A DNA stretch of 16,126 bases, taken from the NCBI GenBank assembly GCA_003165595.1, contig PLWQ01000029.1:43649-59774 (forward strand), in the 5' to 3' direction. This DNA is from Fibrobacterota bacterium. Lineage in GTDB: Bacteria; Fibrobacterota; Chitinivibrionia; Chitinivibrionales; FEN-1185. The position numbers and the translations under genes are program-made. Positions 3,186 to 15,682 of this stretch are shown in pieces. The notes beneath the pieces were generated by a model. It ran no database searches. It was not told the DNA's origin and saw only the letters and a program-made list of their open reading frames with translations. The stretch's first letter is position 1, and each line of letters opens with the position of its first letter.

Positions 3186-4355
3186 ATGCCGGACATCAGC
3201 AATCGTACTAAAACATTTTCCGAATCCGTGATCCGGCGCATGACCCGTGTCGCCAACCAAGCCGGCGCGATCAATCTTTCGCAAGGCTTTCCCGACTTCG
3301 ATCCGCCGCCTGAGCTTCTTGAGTCCCTAAAGCGCGTTGCGGGCGCCGGGCCTCATCAGTATGCGGTCACGTGGGGCGCTCAAAACTTCCGGGTCGCGCT
3401 TGCAAAAAAGCAGGAACACTTCATGGTAATTCCCATTGATCCGGACACGAATATCACCGTGACCTGCGGCAGTACCGAAGCGATGATGGCTGCCATGATG
3501 GCGGTTACCAATCCGGGTGACAAGGTGATTGTTTTTTCCCCTTTTTACGAGAACTACGGCGCCGACGCGATATTGACCGGTGCGAGTCCGATATACGTTT
3601 CACTGCGTCCTCCCTCATTTTCATTTGATGTCGACGAGCTTCGCGCGGCATTTGAGCAGCGACCCAAGGCGCTTATCCTTTGCAATCCGGGAAATCCGAC
3701 GGGCAAAGTATTCTCCAAGGATGAATTGCTGATCATTGCCCGGCTTGCAGAGGAGTTTGATATCTTTGTAATAACTGATGAAGTGTACGAGCATATCGTG
3801 TATGCCCCCTTTGAACATGTCTATTTCGCTTCGTTACCCGGAATGTTCGAACGAACCCTCTCCTGCAGCTCATTGTCCAAGACCTATTCGATAACAGGCT
3901 GGCGTCTCGGATATATCATTGCTCCCGCTCGCGTCATCGATGCGACGCGCAAAGTCCATGATTTTCTCACCGTGGGCGCGGCCGCGCCGTTACAGGAAGC
4001 CGCGGTCACCGCGCTTGGTTTTCCAGATTCGTATTACGAACGATTGCGCCGGCAGTATACAGCGAAACGTTCGGTCTTTCTTCGTGCCTTGGATGCTGCC
4101 GGGCTAAAATACGGCACTCCCGGCGGCGCTTACTACGTTATGGTAGACATGTCGGAATTCGGCGTGGACGACGACGTCACATTTTGCGAATGGCTCGCGC
4201 GTGACGTTGGGGTTGCGGCAGTGCCGGGATCAAGCTTCTTCCATGAGAATGTCACCAGCTACATCCGTTTTCACTTTGCAAAAAAAGAGGACACGCTTGC
4301 CGAAGCAGGCAGCCGGTTGTTACGGCTCCGGTCGCTGGCGGGGAAACGAAAATGA
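3186..4355 (+). CDS. Class I/II PLP aminotransferase, methionine/kynurenine aminotransferase-like
   Basis: This cytosolic fold-type I aminotransferase has 389 residues. The N-terminal INLSQGFPDF (29-38) and the tail segment IRFHFAKKEDTL are typical of the kynurenine/glutamine-transaminase-K group, which includes E. coli YbdL, a methionine aminotransferase. Other landmarks are NPGNPTG near 167-173, DEVYEH with the PLP-contacting Asp198, and the Schiff-base Lys232 in SLSKTYSITGWRLGY. It probably converts methionine or an aromatic amino acid to its 2-oxo acid, which the following oxidoreductase could consume. AGGAG lies 9 bases before the ATG. The stop overlaps the next start (ATGA), indicating coupling. 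Exact substrate is inferred from context. Confidence 0.9.
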   Translation: MPDISNRTKTFSESVIRRMTRVANQAGAINLSQGFPDFDPPPELLESLKRVAGAGPHQYAVTWGAQNFRVALAKKQEHFMVIPIDPDTNITVTCGSTEAMMAAMMAVTNPGDKVIVFSPFYENYGADAILTGASPIYVSLRPPSFSFDVDELRAAFEQRPKALILCNPGNPTGKVFSKDELLIIARLAEEFDIFVITDEVYEHIVYAPFEHVYFASLPGMFERTLSCSSLSKTYSITGWRLGYIIAPARVIDATRKVHDFLTVGAAAPLQEAAVTALGFPDSYYERLRRQYTAKRSVFLRALDAAGLKYGTPGGAYYVMVDMSEFGVDDDVTFCEWLARDVGVAAVPGSSFFHENVTSYIRFHFAKKEDTLAEAGSRLLRLRSLAGKRK

Positions 4356-10120: not shown

Positions 10121-10579
10121 TCAAATCGTGTAATCGACCTGATGGTCGCTCTTGCGCTGTTTGTCAACAAGGTCCTGGAACGACGTCGCGTCAAAAATAT
10201 CGGACATTGAAGATTTTGCCCGTTCCCAGAGATCTTTGAAGACACATCCGCCCCTAAAAGGACAATGGCTGCTGTCCCCTTTCTTCAGGCAATCCACCGA
10301 CTCATCTGCACCTTCAATATACCGGATGATTTCACCGACTGAAATACCCGATGGCGAGACCGTCATCACATATCCGCCCTGATTCCCTCGGCGAGACTCA
10401 ATATACCCGCCGGTTCGCAGCTTGGAAAGAATCTGTTCAAGAAACCGGGGTGGAATATTTTGCGATTGGGCAATATCCGATACAGTTGTAACGGTTTCTG
10501 TAGGATAGCGGATTGCCAATTCAAAGAGCGCCCGAAGTGCATATTGGCATTTCTGTGATACTCCAAGTAGTGCTGACAT
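10121..10579 (-). CDS. Rrf2-family transcriptional regulator (CymR/IscR-like)
   Basis: This DNA-binding regulator has 152 residues. The winged helix is clear: QYALRALFELA, then SDIAQSQNIPPRFLEQILSK as the recognition region (about 34-53), and RRGNQGGYVM as the wing. Cys97, Cys106 and Cys112 (C-x8-C-x5-C) occupy the place where IscR and NsrR bind an Fe-S cluster, so it may sense iron-sulfur status; CymR proper lacks such a set. It diverges from cysK, so it most likely controls the cysteine genes and itself, in the manner of the cysteine regulator CymR. A TATATT on its strand at 10591-10586 lies only 6 bases before the ATG, suggesting a leaderless message or another promoter. The protein ends in DYTI. 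Confidence 0.88.
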   Translation of the reverse strand: MSALLGVSQKCQYALRALFELAIRYPTETVTTVSDIAQSQNIPPRFLEQILSKLRTGGYIESRRGNQGGYVMTVSPSGISVGEIIRYIEGADESVDCLKKGDSSHCPFRGGCVFKDLWERAKSSMSDIFDATSFQDLVDKQRKSDHQVDYTI

Positions 10580-10706: not shown

Positions 10707-11636
10707 ATGGCAATCGCAAGAGACATAACCAAGTTGATTGGGAACACACCTTTGGTGGAGATCAACCGTCTGAATGCCGGCGGAAAAGCCAAAATCGCCG
10801 CGAAGCTGGAGTTCTTCAATCCTTTATCGAGTGTTAAGGACCGAATCGGGCTTGCCATGATCGAGGACGCGGAACAAAGGGGATTACTTAAGAAGGACTC
10901 TGTCATCATTGAGCCGACATCCGGAAATACCGGTATTGCCTTGGCCTTTGTGGCAGCGGCAAAAGGTTACAAACTCATCCTAACCATGCCCGAGACCATG
11001 AGCATCGAAAGACGAAAGATTCTCAAGGCATTTGGCGCCGAGCTCGTTCTTACCGAGGGTCCGAAAGGCATGAAAGGCGCAGTTGCCAAGGCTGAAGAAC
11101 TTGCCGCTTCAACGCCGAATTCATTTTTGCCTCAACAATTCAAGAATCCGGCCAATCCTGCGATTCATCGCACAACGACGGCCGAAGAAGTTTGGAAAGA
11201 TACAGACGGTAAAGTGGACGTCTTTATAGCGGGAGTCGGCACCGGTGGAACTATCTCGGGTGTCGGCGAAGTACTCAAGAAGCGCAAACCGGAAGTAAAG
11301 ATCGTCGCAGTTGAACCTGAAAAGTCACCGGTTCTGTCCGGCGGTCAGCCAAGCCCGCATAAAATCCAGGGAATCGGCGCCGGGTTTGTGCCGGATGTCT
11401 TCAATCGCGCCGTGGTCGACGAAATAATCAAAGTAAAGGATGAAGACGCCGGATCCGTTGCGCGAGATGCGGCAAAACGGGAAGGGCTTCTGATCGGGAT
11501 TTCCTCAGGCGCCGCACTCTGGGCAGCTTTGCAGGTTGCGCAACGGCCGGAAAACGTGGGAAAACTGATCGTCGTTGTCTTGCCGGATACCGGCGAGCGG
11601 TACCTGAGCACCTGGCTGTTCGACGATCCTGTATAA
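10707..11636 (+). CDS. cysK: Cysteine synthase (O-acetylserine sulfhydrylase) CysK
   Basis: This makes cysteine from O-acetylserine and sulfide in the cytosol. The 309 residues match Cys[13 protein letters not shown] Lys44 in LSSVKDRIG, the substrate loop TSGNTG (71-76), the phosphate-binding GVGTGGT (176-182), the [12 protein letters not shown] segment and the final [11 protein letters not shown]. There is no CBS domain, unlike its paralogue at 7332-8705. It is the first gene behind the strong promoter and faces the divergent Rrf2 regulator. No classical CysE serine acetyltransferase lies in the window; the O-acetylserine must come from elsewhere or from the MetA-family enzyme downstream. 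Confidence 0.95.
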
Positions 11637-11731: not shown

Positions 11732-13021
11732 ATGAGTCAGAAGAATTATCGTTTCGAAACTTTGGCTTTGCATGCGGGACAAACTGTGGACGCCACATTT
11801 TCACGCGGTGTTCCGGTATATCGGACCAGCTCCTACTTGTTCAAAAACACGGAACATGGCGCAAATCTTTTCGCCCTTAAGGAGCTGGGCAACATCTACA
11901 CGCGCCTGATGAATCCGACAACAGACGTTCTGGAACAACGCATCAGTCAACTCGAAGGCGGCGCGGCGTCAGTTGCCCTGGCGTCAGGAACAGCCGCGAT
12001 ATTCTACAGCATCATCACGCTTGCGGAGGCCGGCGACGAAATCGTCTCCGCAAACAATTTGTATGGCGGCACATATACCCAGTTCGATGCGATCCTTCCG
12101 AAGCTGGGGATCAAGGTCAAGTTCGTAGACCCAAAAGATCCGAAGAACTTTGAAAGGGCGATCACGGAGAAAACGCGTGCCTTTTTTGTGGAAACCATCG
12201 GCAACCCGGTACTCGACTATACGGATATCAAAGCAGTGGCCGACATAGCACACAAGCACGGTATCCCGCTTATTGTTGATGCGACGTTTACAACGCCGTA
12301 CCTTCTCAAAACCATTGAGCTGGGCGCCGATATTGTCGTCAATTCGCTGACAAAATGGCTTGGCGGTCACGGCTCTGCCATCGGCGGCATTATTACGGAT
12401 TCCGGGAAGTTCAACTGGAAGGGCGGACGCCATAAGCTCTTCACCGAACCGGACAGCAACTATCATGGTTTACGATGGGCAATCGATTTGCCGGAGTCTC
12501 TGGCGCCCATCGCCTTTGCTCTTCGCGTTCGGACCGTACCTCTTCGCAATCTCGGGGCCGCAATTTCACCGGACAATTCCTGGATCTTCATCCAGGGCGT
12601 GGAAACACTGCCGGTCCGCATTGTGCGGCACAGCGAAAATGCGCTCAAGGTGGCGCAGTTCCTCAAGAAACATCCCAAGGTATCGTGGGTGCGGTATCCT
12701 GGCTTGACGGATGACCCGACGTATGCTCTTGCAAGTAAATTCCTCAAGAACGGTTTTGGCGGAATGGTCGTGTTTGGCGTTCGGGGCGGCTATGACGCTG
12801 CCGTCAAGATCATCGACAACATCAAGCTCTTCTCGCATCTCGCAAATGTGGGCGACGCCAAGAGCCTCATCCTGCATCCGGCCAGCACGTCGCATTCACA
12901 GCTGACCGAGCAGCAGCAGGTCGAAAGCGGCTTGACGCGCGATCTTGTGCGTCTTTCAATCGGCATTGAACATCCGGACGACATAATCGAAGCGCTGGAT
13001 GATGCATTGTCGCTGACCTGA
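11732..13021 (+). CDS. metY: O-acetylhomoserine sulfhydrylase (aminocarboxypropyltransferase) MetY
   Basis: This converts O-acetylhomoserine and sulfide (or methanethiol) to homocysteine (or methionine). At 429 residues it has the long MetY size rather than the roughly 380 of MetB/lyases. Motifs: ETLALHAGQ at the start, VPVYRTSSYLF, YTRLMNPT, ASGTAA near 84-89, YGGTY, VDATFTTPYLL, the PLP Lys208 in NSLTKWLGGHG, and the MetY-type insertion with GISPDNSWIFIQGVETL-like sequence followed by LPVRIVRHSENA. HPASTSHSQL and SIGIEHPDDI close it. The acetyl-type MetA at 14321-15214 should supply its substrate, giving direct sulfhydrylation. AAAGGA precedes the ATG. A strong hairpin follows the stop. Confidence 0.95.
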   Translation: MSQKNYRFETLALHAGQTVDATFSRGVPVYRTSSYLFKNTEHGANLFALKELGNIYTRLMNPTTDVLEQRISQLEGGAASVALASGTAAIFYSIITLAEAGDEIVSANNLYGGTYTQFDAILPKLGIKVKFVDPKDPKNFERAITEKTRAFFVETIGNPVLDYTDIKAVADIAHKHGIPLIVDATFTTPYLLKTIELGADIVVNSLTKWLGGHGSAIGGIITDSGKFNWKGGRHKLFTEPDSNYHGLRWAIDLPESLAPIAFALRVRTVPLRNLGAAISPDNSWIFIQGVETLPVRIVRHSENALKVAQFLKKHPKVSWVRYPGLTDDPTYALASKFLKNGFGGMVVFGVRGGYDAAVKIIDNIKLFSHLANVGDAKSLILHPASTSHSQLTEQQQVESGLTRDLVRLSIGIEHPDDIIEALDDALSLT

Positions 13022-13036
13022 TATCAGTTGATCGGT

Positions 13037-13065
13037 GAGGAGCATGCCGTGACGGCATGCTCCTC
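13037..13065 (+). terminator. Perfect 13-bp hairpin after metY, without a T-run
   Basis: GAGGAGCATGCCG (13037-13049), a TGA loop, and CGGCATGCTCCTC (13053-13065) form a perfect GC-rich stem 15 bases after the metY stop. Only CTTCAATAG follows, so termination may be partial. It might instead stabilise the cysK-metY message or act as a pause. The HPr-like gene begins 26 bases further on, and no separate promoter is obvious there, so some read-through seems required. Confidence 0.5.
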
Positions 13066-13091: not shown

Positions 13092-13355
13092 ATGCGCAGT
13101 AAAAGAGTCATCGTGCAAAACGAACATGGAATCCACGCCCGTGTCGCTTTGCGTGTTCTTGAAAAGAGTAAAGACTGTGATTCGAACGTGACTCTCTGCA
13201 AAGGGTGCGCAAAGGCCAATGGGTGCTCTGTTCTTGAAATGCTCATGCTTGGAGCGGAAAAGGGTTCGGAAGTGGAATTGGTCGTTAGCGGCGGGGACGA
13301 GGAAAAATGCATGGCGATAATTTCGGATATATTCGCGGACGGTTCCGGCATTTGA
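13092..13355 (+). CDS. HPr-like protein A, cysteine-rich, phospho-His retained
   Basis: A small protein of 87 residues that aligns with HPr over its whole length and almost residue for residue. GIHARVA places His15 and Arg17 where HPr has them, and CSVLEMLMLG places Ser46 at the regulatory serine position. The Pro after Arg17 is replaced by Val. Unlike ordinary HPr it has Cys29, Cys36, Cys39, Cys45 and Cys73, including a CxxC. HPr normally carries phosphate from enzyme I to PTS sugar transporters, but no PTS gene is nearby. Location between metY and metA suggests a role in sulfur metabolism, perhaps metal, thiol or persulfide binding. AAAGGGA stands 7 bases before the ATG. Function unknown. 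Confidence 0.82.
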   Translation: MRSKRVIVQNEHGIHARVALRVLEKSKDCDSNVTLCKGCAKANGCSVLEMLMLGAEKGSEVELVVSGGDEEKCMAIISDIFADGSGI

Positions 13356-13395
13356 TTCGTTGACGCAGGCATGGAATGATGAAAGGCGTTCTATC

Positions 13396-13656
13396 ATGAT
13401 GACCGCGGAAATTGAACTTGGACCCGGAGAGAAAATTACTCCGTCGGTGGCGGTGGCAATCGCCCTGAAATGCAGACAATGCAAATCAAAGGTTTGCCTG
13501 AGCTGCGGTGATTTCCTGAACATCGACGGGAGGTCTTTCAAACACGTCCATCGCCTCGGGAACATGCCTGATCCGCTTGTCAAGATCATCGTTTCGGGCA
13601 AGGACGAACTCCCGGTAATGTGCGAACTGAGGGATTTGGTGAAATATGGGAAATAG
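13396..13656 (+). CDS. HPr-like protein B, degenerate paralogue lacking the phospho-His
   Basis: I chose ATG 13396 (86 residues) over the upstream TTG at 13360 because GAAAGG lies 9 bases before it and the length then equals HPr. Fold-level similarity to protein A and HPr is visible: a beta-like opening AEIELGPG, an alpha-like SVAVAIALKCR, VCLSCGDFLNIDGRS, then LGNMPDPLVKIIVSGKDE. At the His15 position there is Thr15 (KITPSVA). Val18 and Cys29 are shared with protein A, and Cys34/Cys37 form a CxxC near protein A's Cys36/Cys39; Cys26 and Cys76 are further cysteines. It cannot act as a His phosphocarrier in the normal way. It overlaps the DsrE fragment by 11 bases. Function unknown. Confidence 0.7.
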   Translation: MMTAEIELGPGEKITPSVAVAIALKCRQCKSKVCLSCGDFLNIDGRSFKHVHRLGNMPDPLVKIIVSGKDELPVMCELRDLVKYGK

Positions 13657-13747
13657 AAAACTGTCCATCATTCTGTTCAGCGGTGATTTCGACCGCGCCA
13701 TTGCCGCTTTCACGCTTGCGACCGGCGGCGCATGCCATTTAGAATAG
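13646..13747 (+). pseudogene. Truncated DsrE/DsrF-type (DsrE2-like) gene, N-terminal fragment
   Basis: An ATG overlapping the end of HPr-like protein B opens a 33-codon frame: KLSIILFSGDFDRAIAAFTL then ATGGACHLE and a TAG. FSGD-x-D-x-A-x-AAF-x-L-A-x-G matches, as I remember them, the first 30 residues of DsrE2-like proteins, whose full length is about 110-180 residues and which shuttle sulfur or persulfide in the cytoplasm. The match stops at the Gly-Gly-Ala where the family continues AAMGMEV, and no other frame resumes it before the next ATG at 13761. It therefore looks like a remnant left by a deletion, though a small coupled peptide cannot be excluded. Confidence 0.6.
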
Positions 13748-13760
13748 GATTTCGATACCG

Positions 13761-14324
13761 ATGAAGGTCTTCACTGTTCCGGGGATCAATGGATCGGGCT
13801 CCCAACATTGGCAGACAATATGGGAGTTGCGATACGGTTATTCACGTGTGAAACAAAACAACTGGGGAAGGCCGGTATTTGCGGATTGGAAAACAGGGTT
13901 GATTCAAACCCTGAATGCGCTGGGTGAGAAGGATCGGGCCGTTTTCGTCGCCCACAGCCTTGGATGTCACCTTGTCGTGAAATGTCTGCCGCTGATCAAA
14001 AGCAGGGTTGCAGGCATTCTTCTGGTTGCACCACCGGACCTCACCTCGCCGGTGTTTACCATAGACCTTACCGATTTTGCCGGAAATCATGGTGTACTTC
14101 CCGATGTTTCCGGATACCTGGTATACAGTGAAAATGACCCTTTTGCATCAATTGCATTTTCGGAAAAGCTCTCCCTCGAGCTCGGTCTTCATGCATTCAA
14201 TGGTGGACGCCTCGGGCATATCAATGCGGATTCAGGTCATGGCGAGTGGAATGAAGGCCATGAACTTCTTGTTCAGTTTCTGAAATCACTGCGGGTTCAA
14301 ACACCCGGGGAACAACCCGCATGA
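13761..14324 (+). CDS. RBBP9/YdeN-family alpha/beta serine hydrolase
   Basis: A soluble 187-residue hydrolase of the RBBP9/YdeN group (DUF-type serine hydrolases). The start VPGINGSGSQHWQTIWE is diagnostic. Ser66 in VAHSLGCH is the nucleophile, Asp126 in SENDPFAS the acid, and His153 in GRLGHINADSGHGEW the likely base, so the triad is complete. There is no signal peptide. Substrates of the family are poorly known. Its stop overlaps the MetA-family start (ATGA), implying co-translation; a thioesterase- or esterase-like job on acyl homoserine/serine products or on a damaged metabolite is conceivable but unproven. An AGGA at 13746-13749, within the end of the DsrE fragment, serves as ribosome-binding site. 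Confidence 0.88.
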   Translation: MKVFTVPGINGSGSQHWQTIWELRYGYSRVKQNNWGRPVFADWKTGLIQTLNALGEKDRAVFVAHSLGCHLVVKCLPLIKSRVAGILLVAPPDLTSPVFTIDLTDFAGNHGVLPDVSGYLVYSENDPFASIAFSEKLSLELGLHAFNGGRLGHINADSGHGEWNEGHELLVQFLKSLRVQTPGEQPA

Positions 14325-15214
14325 CGATCATCGCATCAAAGAACTATCACCTTCGGGACGCCTTGCAGGAGCGTCGAATATTGTGCATAGACCCTGAGGA
14401 TGCTCTAAGGGAAGATATTCGTGCCTTGCGGATCGGTATTCTCAACATCATGCCGAAAGCCGAGTCTTACGAATTCAGCCTGCTCCATGCGCTTGGGCGT
14501 TCGGTACTCCAGATCGATCCGGTGTGGATACGGCTCAAGACCCATCGGTATACCAGCAGCGATTGGGAACATTTGAAGAATCTGTATGTGCTCTTTGAAG
14601 ACGCGATTGCAAAGAACCGGCTCGATGGGCTCGTTTTAACGGGCGCTCCGGTCGAGGATATCCCGTTCGAAGACGTCTTGTATTGGAAAGAAGTAACGAG
14701 GATACTCGAATATGCGCGGAAAAACATCCCGTCGACGCTCGGAATTTGCTGGGGCGGTCTCGCCCTTGCGAAGCAATTGGGTATTGAAAAAAACGTATTC
14801 AAGGACAAATTATTCGGCGTTTTCGAAACAAGGAACCTTGACACGAAACACAGGATAACGGGGGAAATGGATGATGTTTTCTGGTGCCCCCAAAGCCGTT
14901 TCTCGGGTATTCATGATGACATACTGGAAAGGGAACGTGACAAGGGGACGGTCAATCTCCTTGCCTATGCGACGGAAACGGGGTATACGATATTCGAAAG
15001 CGCTGATAGCCGGTTTCTTATGCACCTTGGACATCCGGAGTATAATGCGCAAAGGCTTGTCGAGGAATATTTCAGGGATGCCAAGGAAAACAAACCCGGT
15101 GTTGGACCGCCGCAAAACCTCGATGTGAATAATCCGGTCAACCGTTGGAAAGGACAGGCGACCGAATTCTTCTCACAATGGATTAAATATATCCACGAGC
15201 ACATTTCATTTTAA
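14321..15214 (+). CDS. metA: MetA-family homoserine O-acyltransferase (probable acetyl-CoA specificity)
   Basis: This activates homoserine (or possibly serine) by O-acylation, 297 residues against 309 for E. coli MetA. It has ILNIMPK (40-46), the oxyanion/nucleophile segment LGICWGG with Cys143, and GHPEYNAQR with His238 and Glu240, the family's catalytic residues. At the position that decides the acyl donor it has Glu112 (LTGAPVEDIPFEDV) where E. coli has Gly; Glu there goes with acetyl-CoA in characterised members. That fits MetY, which needs O-acetylhomoserine. Some MetA relatives (lactobacilli) acetylate serine instead, and no CysE is present here, so a serine acetyltransferase feeding cysK is an alternative. 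The segment ESYEFSLLHALGR is unusual compared with typical MetA. Confidence 0.88.
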   Translation: MTIIASKNYHLRDALQERRILCIDPEDALREDIRALRIGILNIMPKAESYEFSLLHALGRSVLQIDPVWIRLKTHRYTSSDWEHLKNLYVLFEDAIAKNRLDGLVLTGAPVEDIPFEDVLYWKEVTRILEYARKNIPSTLGICWGGLALAKQLGIEKNVFKDKLFGVFETRNLDTKHRITGEMDDVFWCPQSRFSGIHDDILERERDKGTVNLLAYATETGYTIFESADSRFLMHLGHPEYNAQRLVEEYFRDAKENKPGVGPPQNLDVNNPVNRWKGQATEFFSQWIKYIHEHISF

Positions 15215-15247: not shown

Positions 15248-15682
15248 ATGAAATTGTCCGCGAAATGCAGGTACGGCACGCGCGCGATGATTGAAATCGC
15301 GCGAAATGAAAAAAACGGACCGGTCAAACGGAAGGTTATTGTACAGGCGCAAGAGATATCCCGTGCCTACCTTGAAAACATACTCATCAGCTTGAAAATG
15401 AGCAAATTGATCCGGACGGTGCGAGGCGCCAACGGCGGGTTTGTCCTGGAAAAAAGGCCGTCTGCTATCAACCTTTTCCAGATCGTACTTTCGCTGGAGG
15501 GAACCATGTCACCTGTTGAATGCCTGGATAACCGGACCATATGCGAAAAATGGGATTGTTGTGCCGTACGAAAGGCTTGGGCAAAGCTTTACGATGCCCA
15601 GAAAAGCGCCCTCAAAGGGATGACTCTTCAGGATCTCCTTGATATGGATTCAACCGAGGCCGCTGCAGATTACGTGATTTAA
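15248..15682 (+). CDS. Second Rrf2-family transcriptional regulator
   Basis: A 144-residue winged-helix regulator. MKLSAKCRYGTRAMIEIAR is the typical Rrf2 opening; EISRAYLENILISLKMSKLI forms the recognition region and RGANGGFVL the wing. Cys92, Cys99, Cys104 and Cys105 (C-x6-C-x4-CC) lie at the Fe-S site of IscR/NsrR. It is clearly different from the regulator at 10121-10579, yet both end in DY-x-I. It starts 33 bases after metA with an AAAGGG ribosome-binding site, so it is likely co-transcribed with metA and could regulate that operon or a related sulfur or iron-sulfur regulon elsewhere. No operator copy is obvious next to it. Confidence 0.88.
   Translation: MKLSAKCRYGTRAMIEIARNEKNGPVKRKVIVQAQEISRAYLENILISLKMSKLIRTVRGANGGFVLEKRPSAINLFQIVLSLEGTMSPVECLDNRTICEKWDCCAVRKAWAKLYDAQKSALKGMTLQDLLDMDSTEAAADYVI

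Follow-up and report, generated by a model that had tools for sequence, protein, structure and literature searches.

HPr1, a small protein encoded among sulfur amino acid genes in a Fibrobacterota genome, appears from its sequence to belong to a distinct subfamily of HPr, the phosphocarrier of the phosphotransferase system (PTS). Members of this subfamily, here called Cys-HPr, carry a triad of cysteines that runs up to Ser46, the predicted target of HPr kinase, end in Gly-x-Gly-Ile and recur beside sulfur genes in several phyla. We give a probability of about 0.5 to a combined model in which Cys-HPr is a PTS phosphocarrier that has been recruited as a regulator of sulfur assimilation, one that would dock on cysteine synthase A (CysK), respond to phosphorylation and sense thiols. 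Sequence and structure prediction support the HPr fold, the phosphorylation sites (His15 and Ser46), the triad, the GxGI tail and the linkage to sulfur genes.

Gene layout of the window

The window is the whole stretch of DNA that was analysed, 16,126 nucleotides on contig C25 of the source genome (G000; assembly of 5.39 Mb), whose nearest named relatives are MAGs labelled Fibrobacter and Chitinispirillum. It begins with metN, metI, a PaaK-like ligase, an aminotransferase, a 2-oxoacid oxidoreductase set, CBS and metB/C, and continues with Rrf2, cysK, metY, HPr1, HPr2, a DsrE2 stub, an RBBP9-like hydrolase, metA and a second Rrf2 (Table 1). Some of these gene names were assigned by reading translations. 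The two adjacent small ORFs of the original prediction are present and lie between metY and metA as it had stated, with the DsrE2 stub and the serine hydrolase gene also situated between the pair and metA. A homologue of this hydrolase is also found downstream of Cys-HPr in another genome (G028).

Table 1. Features of the window from the first Rrf2 gene to the second, with the evidence for each.
Feature	Position	Strand	Evidence
Rrf2-family regulator, divergent from cysK, C-terminus DYTI	10121..10579	-	ORF; BLAST relative of second Rrf2
cysK, cysteine synthase A	10707..11636	+	TIGR01139 6.1e-145, over cut-off; TSGNTG and QQF residues present
metY, O-acetylhomoserine sulfhydrylase	11732..13021	+	TIGR01326 7e-185
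13-bp perfect hairpin, metY/HPr1 intergenic	13037..13065	+	fold z-score -4.7; no T-run
HPr1 (Cys-HPr), 87 aa	13092..13355	+	PF00381 E 3.5e-20; AlphaFold pLDDT 91; PDB TM 0.91; 17-row alignment
His15 codon of HPr1, HPr phosphorylation site	13134..13136	+	invariant in 17/17 homologues
HPr1 codons 36-46, Cys36-x-x-Cys39-x5-Cys45-Ser46, triad up to HPr-kinase serine	13197..13229	+	C36, C39, C45 and S46 invariant in 17/17
HPr1 codons 84-87, C-terminal Gly-Ser-Gly-Ile, proposed CysK-docking tail	13341..13352	+	GxGI in 17/17 Cys-HPr, not in canonical HPrs
HPr2, 86 aa, divergent HPr-like, without His15 or GxGI, two CxxC	13396..13656	+	PF00381 E 0.009; hhalign 98% with HPr4
Truncated DsrE2, 33 aa, overlaps HPr2 end	13646..13747	+	PF13686 E 0.0023, residues 3-29; 82% DNA identity over 57 bp to intact DsrE2 after HPr4
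RBBP9-like serine hydrolase, 187 aa	13761..14324	+	PF06821 1.7e-41
metA, homoserine O-acyltransferase	14321..15214	+	PF04204 7.7e-83
Rrf2/CymR-like regulator, C-terminus DYVI	15248..15682	+	PF02082 2.9e-32; CymR model 1.6e-30, below its cut-off

The strong hairpin between metY and HPr1 may serve as a terminator or as a site of processing. Among the other stretches of the source genome that were read, none showed its core as a hairpin, and no Rfam family was found in the window. Relatives of the window's aminotransferase (3186-4355), 72-73% identical to it, adjoin Cys-HPr/metY loci in the phylum of a Victivallales genome (L223 8052-9239; L225 10354-12117). The cluster of the window thus seems to travel together to a larger extent than the HPr alone.

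HPr1 is a true HPr

All sequence and fold tests that were run identify HPr1 unambiguously as an HPr. Its only Pfam match is PTS-HPr, with a score of 72.3 bits against a cut-off of 23. The AlphaFold2 model, for which seven homologues served as input, has a mean pLDDT of 91 and reproduces the β-α-β-β-α-β-α order of HPr; its last block, the C-terminal tail, has pLDDT 66. In a Foldseek comparison with the PDB, all matches at E < 0.001 were to chains of HPr, NPr or Crh, the best being 7ff5 (TM 0.91); 1poh matched with TM 0.89. No match to a TusA, DsrE or rhodanese fold was obtained in either the Pfam or the PDB comparison.

In the predicted structure, Cys36 lies near the end of the second strand and Cys39 in the following turn, and Cys45 is located in the loop before the second helix, where it adjoins Ser46. 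The CxxC formed by Cys36 and Cys39 had been noticed in the original prediction and is real and conserved in all 17 Cys-HPr proteins; overlooked was Cys45, which completes the invariant triad. A further cysteine, Cys29, which had been described as shared by HPr1 and HPr2, is not conserved among the homologues of HPr1.

A thiocarboxylate carrier of the ThiS/MoaD type was also considered for HPr1 on account of ThiF/MoeB-like neighbours and the Gly-rich tail. This candidate was rejected as the leading reading because the fold is that of HPr and not the beta-grasp fold of such carriers, and the tail ends in Ile; the residue between the tail glycines varies, so that removing the Ile would not leave Gly-Gly.

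The Cys-HPr subfamily

At least 17 members with C-x-x-C-x5-C-S were found, in Fibrobacterota and in the phyla to which a Victivallales genome and the unplaced genome R3-B46 belong. Members were collected by a motif scan of 84,980 genomes and by profile searches of these three groups; the scanned motif was narrower than C-x-x-C-x5-C-S and missed the CKDC and CEGC forms, which were found later. The phylum of many member genomes is taken from the genome on which the search was centred, and most of the genomes are MAGs. Homologues share 38-76% identity with HPr1 in the 17-row alignment, in which G13, H15, R17, C36, C39, A42, C45, S46, L51, L53, G58, G67, D69, G84 and I87 are invariant. Both the cysteine triad and the Ile tail are absent from canonical HPrs.

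A maximum likelihood tree of 64 HPr-like rows separated Cys-HPr and the metY-linked HPrs that lack the triad from 44 canonical HPrs, with a support of 95/42 from few columns; it was built before the last Cys-HPr members were found. The metY-linked HPrs without the triad are HPr3 of the source genome (contig C22) and those of G001, G002 and G035. Their sequences suggest that the triad was either lost in these proteins or gained late. Since several metY-linked relatives lack these cysteines, the triad is not needed for the core function, whatever this may be. We found no prior description of this subfamily, nor of any HPr tied to sulfur, cysteine synthase, CysK or MetY or any HPr branch dedicated to sulfur, in the part of the literature covered, outside which most subscription journals lie. 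No such sulfur-linked HPr system was found in a study of PTS evolution.

HPr2 and the other HPr-like genes of the source genome

Both small proteins had been predicted to align with HPr. This is true of HPr1; HPr2 is related only remotely, with a PF00381 score (16.5 bits) below the cut-off. A joint profile of HPr2 and HPr4, another protein of the same genome, matched the HPr1 homologues with 98% probability. At the positions of His15 and Arg17, HPr2 has Thr and Ser, and HPr4 is also without this phosphorylation site. The predicted CxxC of HPr2 at 34/37 is present along with a second at 26/29, but Cys26 alone is kept in HPr4, the sole relative detected. A single-sequence AlphaFold model of HPr2 (pLDDT 43) was too poor to judge the fold. 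Going by its sequence, HPr2 is a remote relative of HPr; by the cut-off and its missing His15 it is not an HPr.

No relatives of HPr2 were found among 60 related genomes beyond HPr4 of the source genome itself, and at two weak matches (G041 C28 and G028 C212) no HPr-like gene was seen on reading. On this basis the tandem HPr1-HPr2 pair was rejected as a functional unit. The pair is local, and the single Cys-HPr is the recurring unit.

The source genome contains five HPr-like genes. In addition to HPr1 and HPr2, C41 carries a canonical HPr, with an HPr kinase gene and an RpoN-like gene close by; HPr3 lies on C22, inside a second cysK-metY-HPr-Rrf2 operon; and HPr4 lies on C25, approximately 3 kb upstream of the window, with an intact DsrE2 gene after it. 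The DsrE2 stub of the window keeps only about 27 residues of the family, and the most plausible reading is that HPr2 and this stub are a relative of the HPr4-DsrE2 pair that is in decay. C22 also encodes, a few kb downstream from its cysK-metY-HPr-Rrf2 operon, an 863-aa protein in which CoA-disulfide reductase, rhodanese, TusA-like and DsrE2 domains are fused (L016 11927-14518).

The original prediction had remarked that neither enzyme I nor HPr kinase is encoded nearby. This is correct for the window but not for the genome, which has five enzyme I-type genes (C36, C23, C27 and two on C14; L140-L144) as well as the HPr kinase gene near the canonical HPr. Enzyme I genes were present in all ten genomes tested. 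No sulfur metabolism was recognised in the neighbourhoods of the enzyme I genes of the source genome, where five such genes coexist with an active His in only three HPrs. Additional HPr paralogues are frequent here, with eight hits in G030. Five further HPr-like genes of G030 (L060, L061, two in L062, and L064) lie outside recognisable sulfur loci, and in most of them the active-site His is changed or its context altered.

Cys-HPr genes are linked to sulfur genes

A sulfur gene was present within 1.5 kb of 12 of the 17 Cys-HPr genes, as compared to 2 of 55 HPr-like genes that lack both the triad and the GxGI tail (Fisher p 3e-8, which overstates independence because the sequences are related). 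Genes counted as sulfur neighbours were metY, cysK, metA, metB/C, LarE, BioB, ThiF, Thi4 and MnmA. The two linked exceptions among the 55 are HPr2 itself and the metY-linked HPr of G035. The five Cys-HPr genes with no sulfur gene at this distance include those of G028, G029, G037 and the Victivallales MAG. An HPr gene is the immediate neighbour of metY or cysK at five of 24 metY loci from the order, and these five are spread over four genomes.

Gene order varies between phyla, and the linkage of Cys-HPr to sulfur genes persists. The arrangement in G189 reads Rrf2, DUF3034, metY, cysK, Cys-HPr, PP-loop protein, LarE, BioB, MnmA, NifS, ThiF/MoeB-like and Thi4, and that of R3-B46 reads Rrf2, metY, CBS, metB/C, Cys-HPr, Thi4 and MnmA. 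Cys-HPr follows metY in G306, G444 and G475, follows metY-cysK in G188 and stands between metY and cysK in G520. The order is aminotransferase, Cys-HPr, metY, cysK in G312 and Cys-HPr-ThiF-LarE-MnmA in G545; cysK and Cys-HPr are divergent in G350, and in G487 Cys-HPr and BioB come after genes read as sulfate assimilation and transport. A DUF3034 gene is repeatedly found upstream of metY in these operons (L150, L151, L071, L223, L225 and L226). In two genomes of the order, G006 and G015 (L132 and L136), a gene reading as MnmA directly follows metY, with no adjacent HPr.

The tie between HPr and sulfur metabolism that had been predicted for the pair therefore holds for HPr1, given its HPr-fold match, its conserved cysteines and a sulfur-gene link that recurs in several phyla. 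It fails for the pair as such, as HPr2 was found only in the source genome in a search of 60 relatives, lacks His15 and belongs to an apparently decayed HPr-DsrE2 unit.

The C-terminal tail and CysK

In addition to all 17 Cys-HPr proteins, three of the four cysteine-less metY-linked members and HPr4 end in G-x-G-I; the fourth cysteine-less member ends in GAEI. None of the canonical HPrs compared has a terminal Ile. Lachnospiraceae HPrs end in GLGE and thus also have Gly-x-Gly before the last residue, so that the terminal Ile alone is special. The tail had been overlooked in the original prediction, and it points to a more specific mechanism than the "sulfur, metal or redox work" suggested there.

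Terminal isoleucines of this kind are known from proteins that bind CysK. The free C-terminal Ile of CysE anchors in the CysK active site and accounts for approximately 80% of the binding energy, CdiA-CT binds CysK through GYGI, EGL-9 binds a CysK homologue through its terminal Ile, and CymR is named among the Ile-tailed CysK partners (PMC12895370, PMC5562914, PMC7690452, PMC4961446). In the genomes studied here, CysK scored over the TIGR01139 cut-off in all 20 that were checked, and the TSGNTG and QF motifs are kept in nearly all of the proteins. Little can be concluded from these residues on docking, because those of CysK that hold the docked peptide also serve in catalysis.

Of 25 CysE-like proteins in these genomes, 24 do not end in Ile. 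Complete Rrf2 proteins found near cysK or metY end in Ile in 13 of 13 cases, mostly as Y-x-I; they include both Rrf2 proteins of the window and those at L016 7963-8397, L071, L150, L151, L063, L133, L135, L138 and other loci. In these operons, CysK thus appears to be accompanied by Ile-tailed proteins of two types, one an Rrf2 regulator and the other an HPr. The 13 Ile-ended Rrf2 sequences also suggest that CymR-like docking on CysK may be widespread outside Firmicutes. The CBS-domain cystathionine beta-synthase of R3-B46 (L071 3310-4752) ends in SDGI, which resembles a CysK-docking tail.

Comparison with known systems

Cys-HPr has in common with HPr (PtsH; PF00381/TIGR01003) the fold, the His15-Arg17 site, Ser46 and the length. 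It differs in its triad, its GxGI tail and its location in sulfur operons instead of ptsI/hprK loci, and it coexists with a canonical HPr. As proposed, it would resemble Crh and NPr in being a second HPr specialised for regulating another metabolic area. Crh lacks the active His and the NPr gene is located near rpoN; neither protein is known to carry a triad or an Ile tail, or to be linked with cysK or metY.

CysE, CdiA-CT and EGL-9 share the free C-terminal Ile with Cys-HPr, which in CdiA-CT closes the sequence GYGI, and like it occur in organisms with CysK. However, their folds are unrelated to HPr, and the likeness lies in the tail sequence. The CymR-CysK system of Bacillus subtilis has a parallel in the CymR-like, Ile-ended Rrf2 proteins near cysK in these operons, but no HPr partner is described for it in the papers found, and the window's CymR-like Rrf2 scores below the CymR cut-off. 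TusA and DsrE2 carriers are likewise small, cysteine-bearing proteins in sulfur-transfer neighbourhoods, and DsrE2 genes follow both HPr4 and HPr2, although the fold and family of these carriers differ from those of Cys-HPr. If the model is right, Cys-HPr would combine a regulatory paralogue of the Crh/NPr kind with CysK docking of the CysE/CymR kind, a combination that we did not find described.

Proposed mechanism and alternatives

By analogy with the tails of CysE and CdiA-CT, the flexible tail of Cys-HPr would put its terminal Ile into the active site of CysK. Cys-HPr would thereby bind and restrain CysK, and would compete for it with the Ile-tailed, CymR-like Rrf2 regulators of the same operons. 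Phosphorylation by enzyme I at His15 or by HPr kinase at Ser46 may tune this binding, and so may the triad beside Ser46 through its redox, persulfide or metal state. Docking tuned in this manner would, we propose, couple cysteine and methionine synthesis and CysK-Rrf2 transcription to PEP/energy and sulfur status. HPr2 would represent a diverged side branch that appears to decay with its DsrE2 partner. We put forward more tentatively the broader view of a sulfur branch of the PTS in several phyla, in which an HPr with a thiol triad would dock on CysK via a CysE-like GxGI tail and feed PEP and HPr-kinase signals to cysteine synthesis and the CysK-Rrf2 circuit.

Docking on CysK alone does not explain the LarE, MnmA and Thi4 neighbours. 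These genes favour an alternative in which Cys-HPr is a sulfane-sulfur carrier: a triad cysteine would take persulfide from a cysteine desulfurase or rhodanese and pass it to CysK/MetY, LarE, MnmA, Thi4 or BioB, with phosphorylation as control. LarE, BioB, MnmA, NifS, ThiF and Thi4 lie downstream of Cys-HPr in G189, ThiF, LarE and MnmA accompany it in G545, and Thi4 and MnmA in R3-B46. A rhodanese in G030, the DsrE2 gene adjoining HPr4 and the persulfide use reported for cysteine synthases (PMC13188885) would also suit such a carrier. We consider it unlikely, however, since the cysK-metY-linked HPrs of C22, G001, G002 and G035 occupy the same place without a triad and the fold is HPr rather than TusA, DsrE or rhodanese; the invariant Ile tail and the retained His15 and Ser46 would be left unexplained.

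The invariance of His15, Arg17 and Ser46 would also fit a PTS-dependent regulator of sulfur operons that acts on another target, such as MetY, an Rrf2 protein or a transporter, with the triad as a structural metal site and GxGI without a CysK function. Linkage to metY persists without an adjacent cysK in G306 and G475, and the PDB contains HPr bound to glycogen phosphorylase, to Rsd and to a fructose regulator, all examples of direct binding to enzymes and regulators. That the tail ends exactly in Ile in all Cys-HPr proteins and most cysteine-less relatives, and that CysK is encoded in every genome tested, makes this reading rather improbable. Least of all do we expect Cys-HPr to be an ordinary extra HPr copy that lies beside sulfur genes by chance and whose cysteines are of no consequence. 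Extra paralogues are indeed common, as G030 illustrates, and five Cys-HPr genes have no sulfur neighbour within 1.5 kb. Nevertheless, the linkage (12/17 compared to 2/55) is repeated in several phyla with changing gene order, and the cysteines and the terminal Ile are invariant among sequences that are 38-76% identical to HPr1.

Were the model of a CysK-docking Cys-HPr true, a peptide tail would join the PTS to the moonlighting enzyme CysK, both of them well-studied hubs, and this would suggest how CysK is controlled in bacteria whose CysE has no docking tail. Independently of docking, a subfamily of HPr with an invariant cysteine triad, found in sulfur operons across several phyla, offers a new starting point for work on sulfur trafficking that involves LarE, MnmA, Thi4 and BioB.
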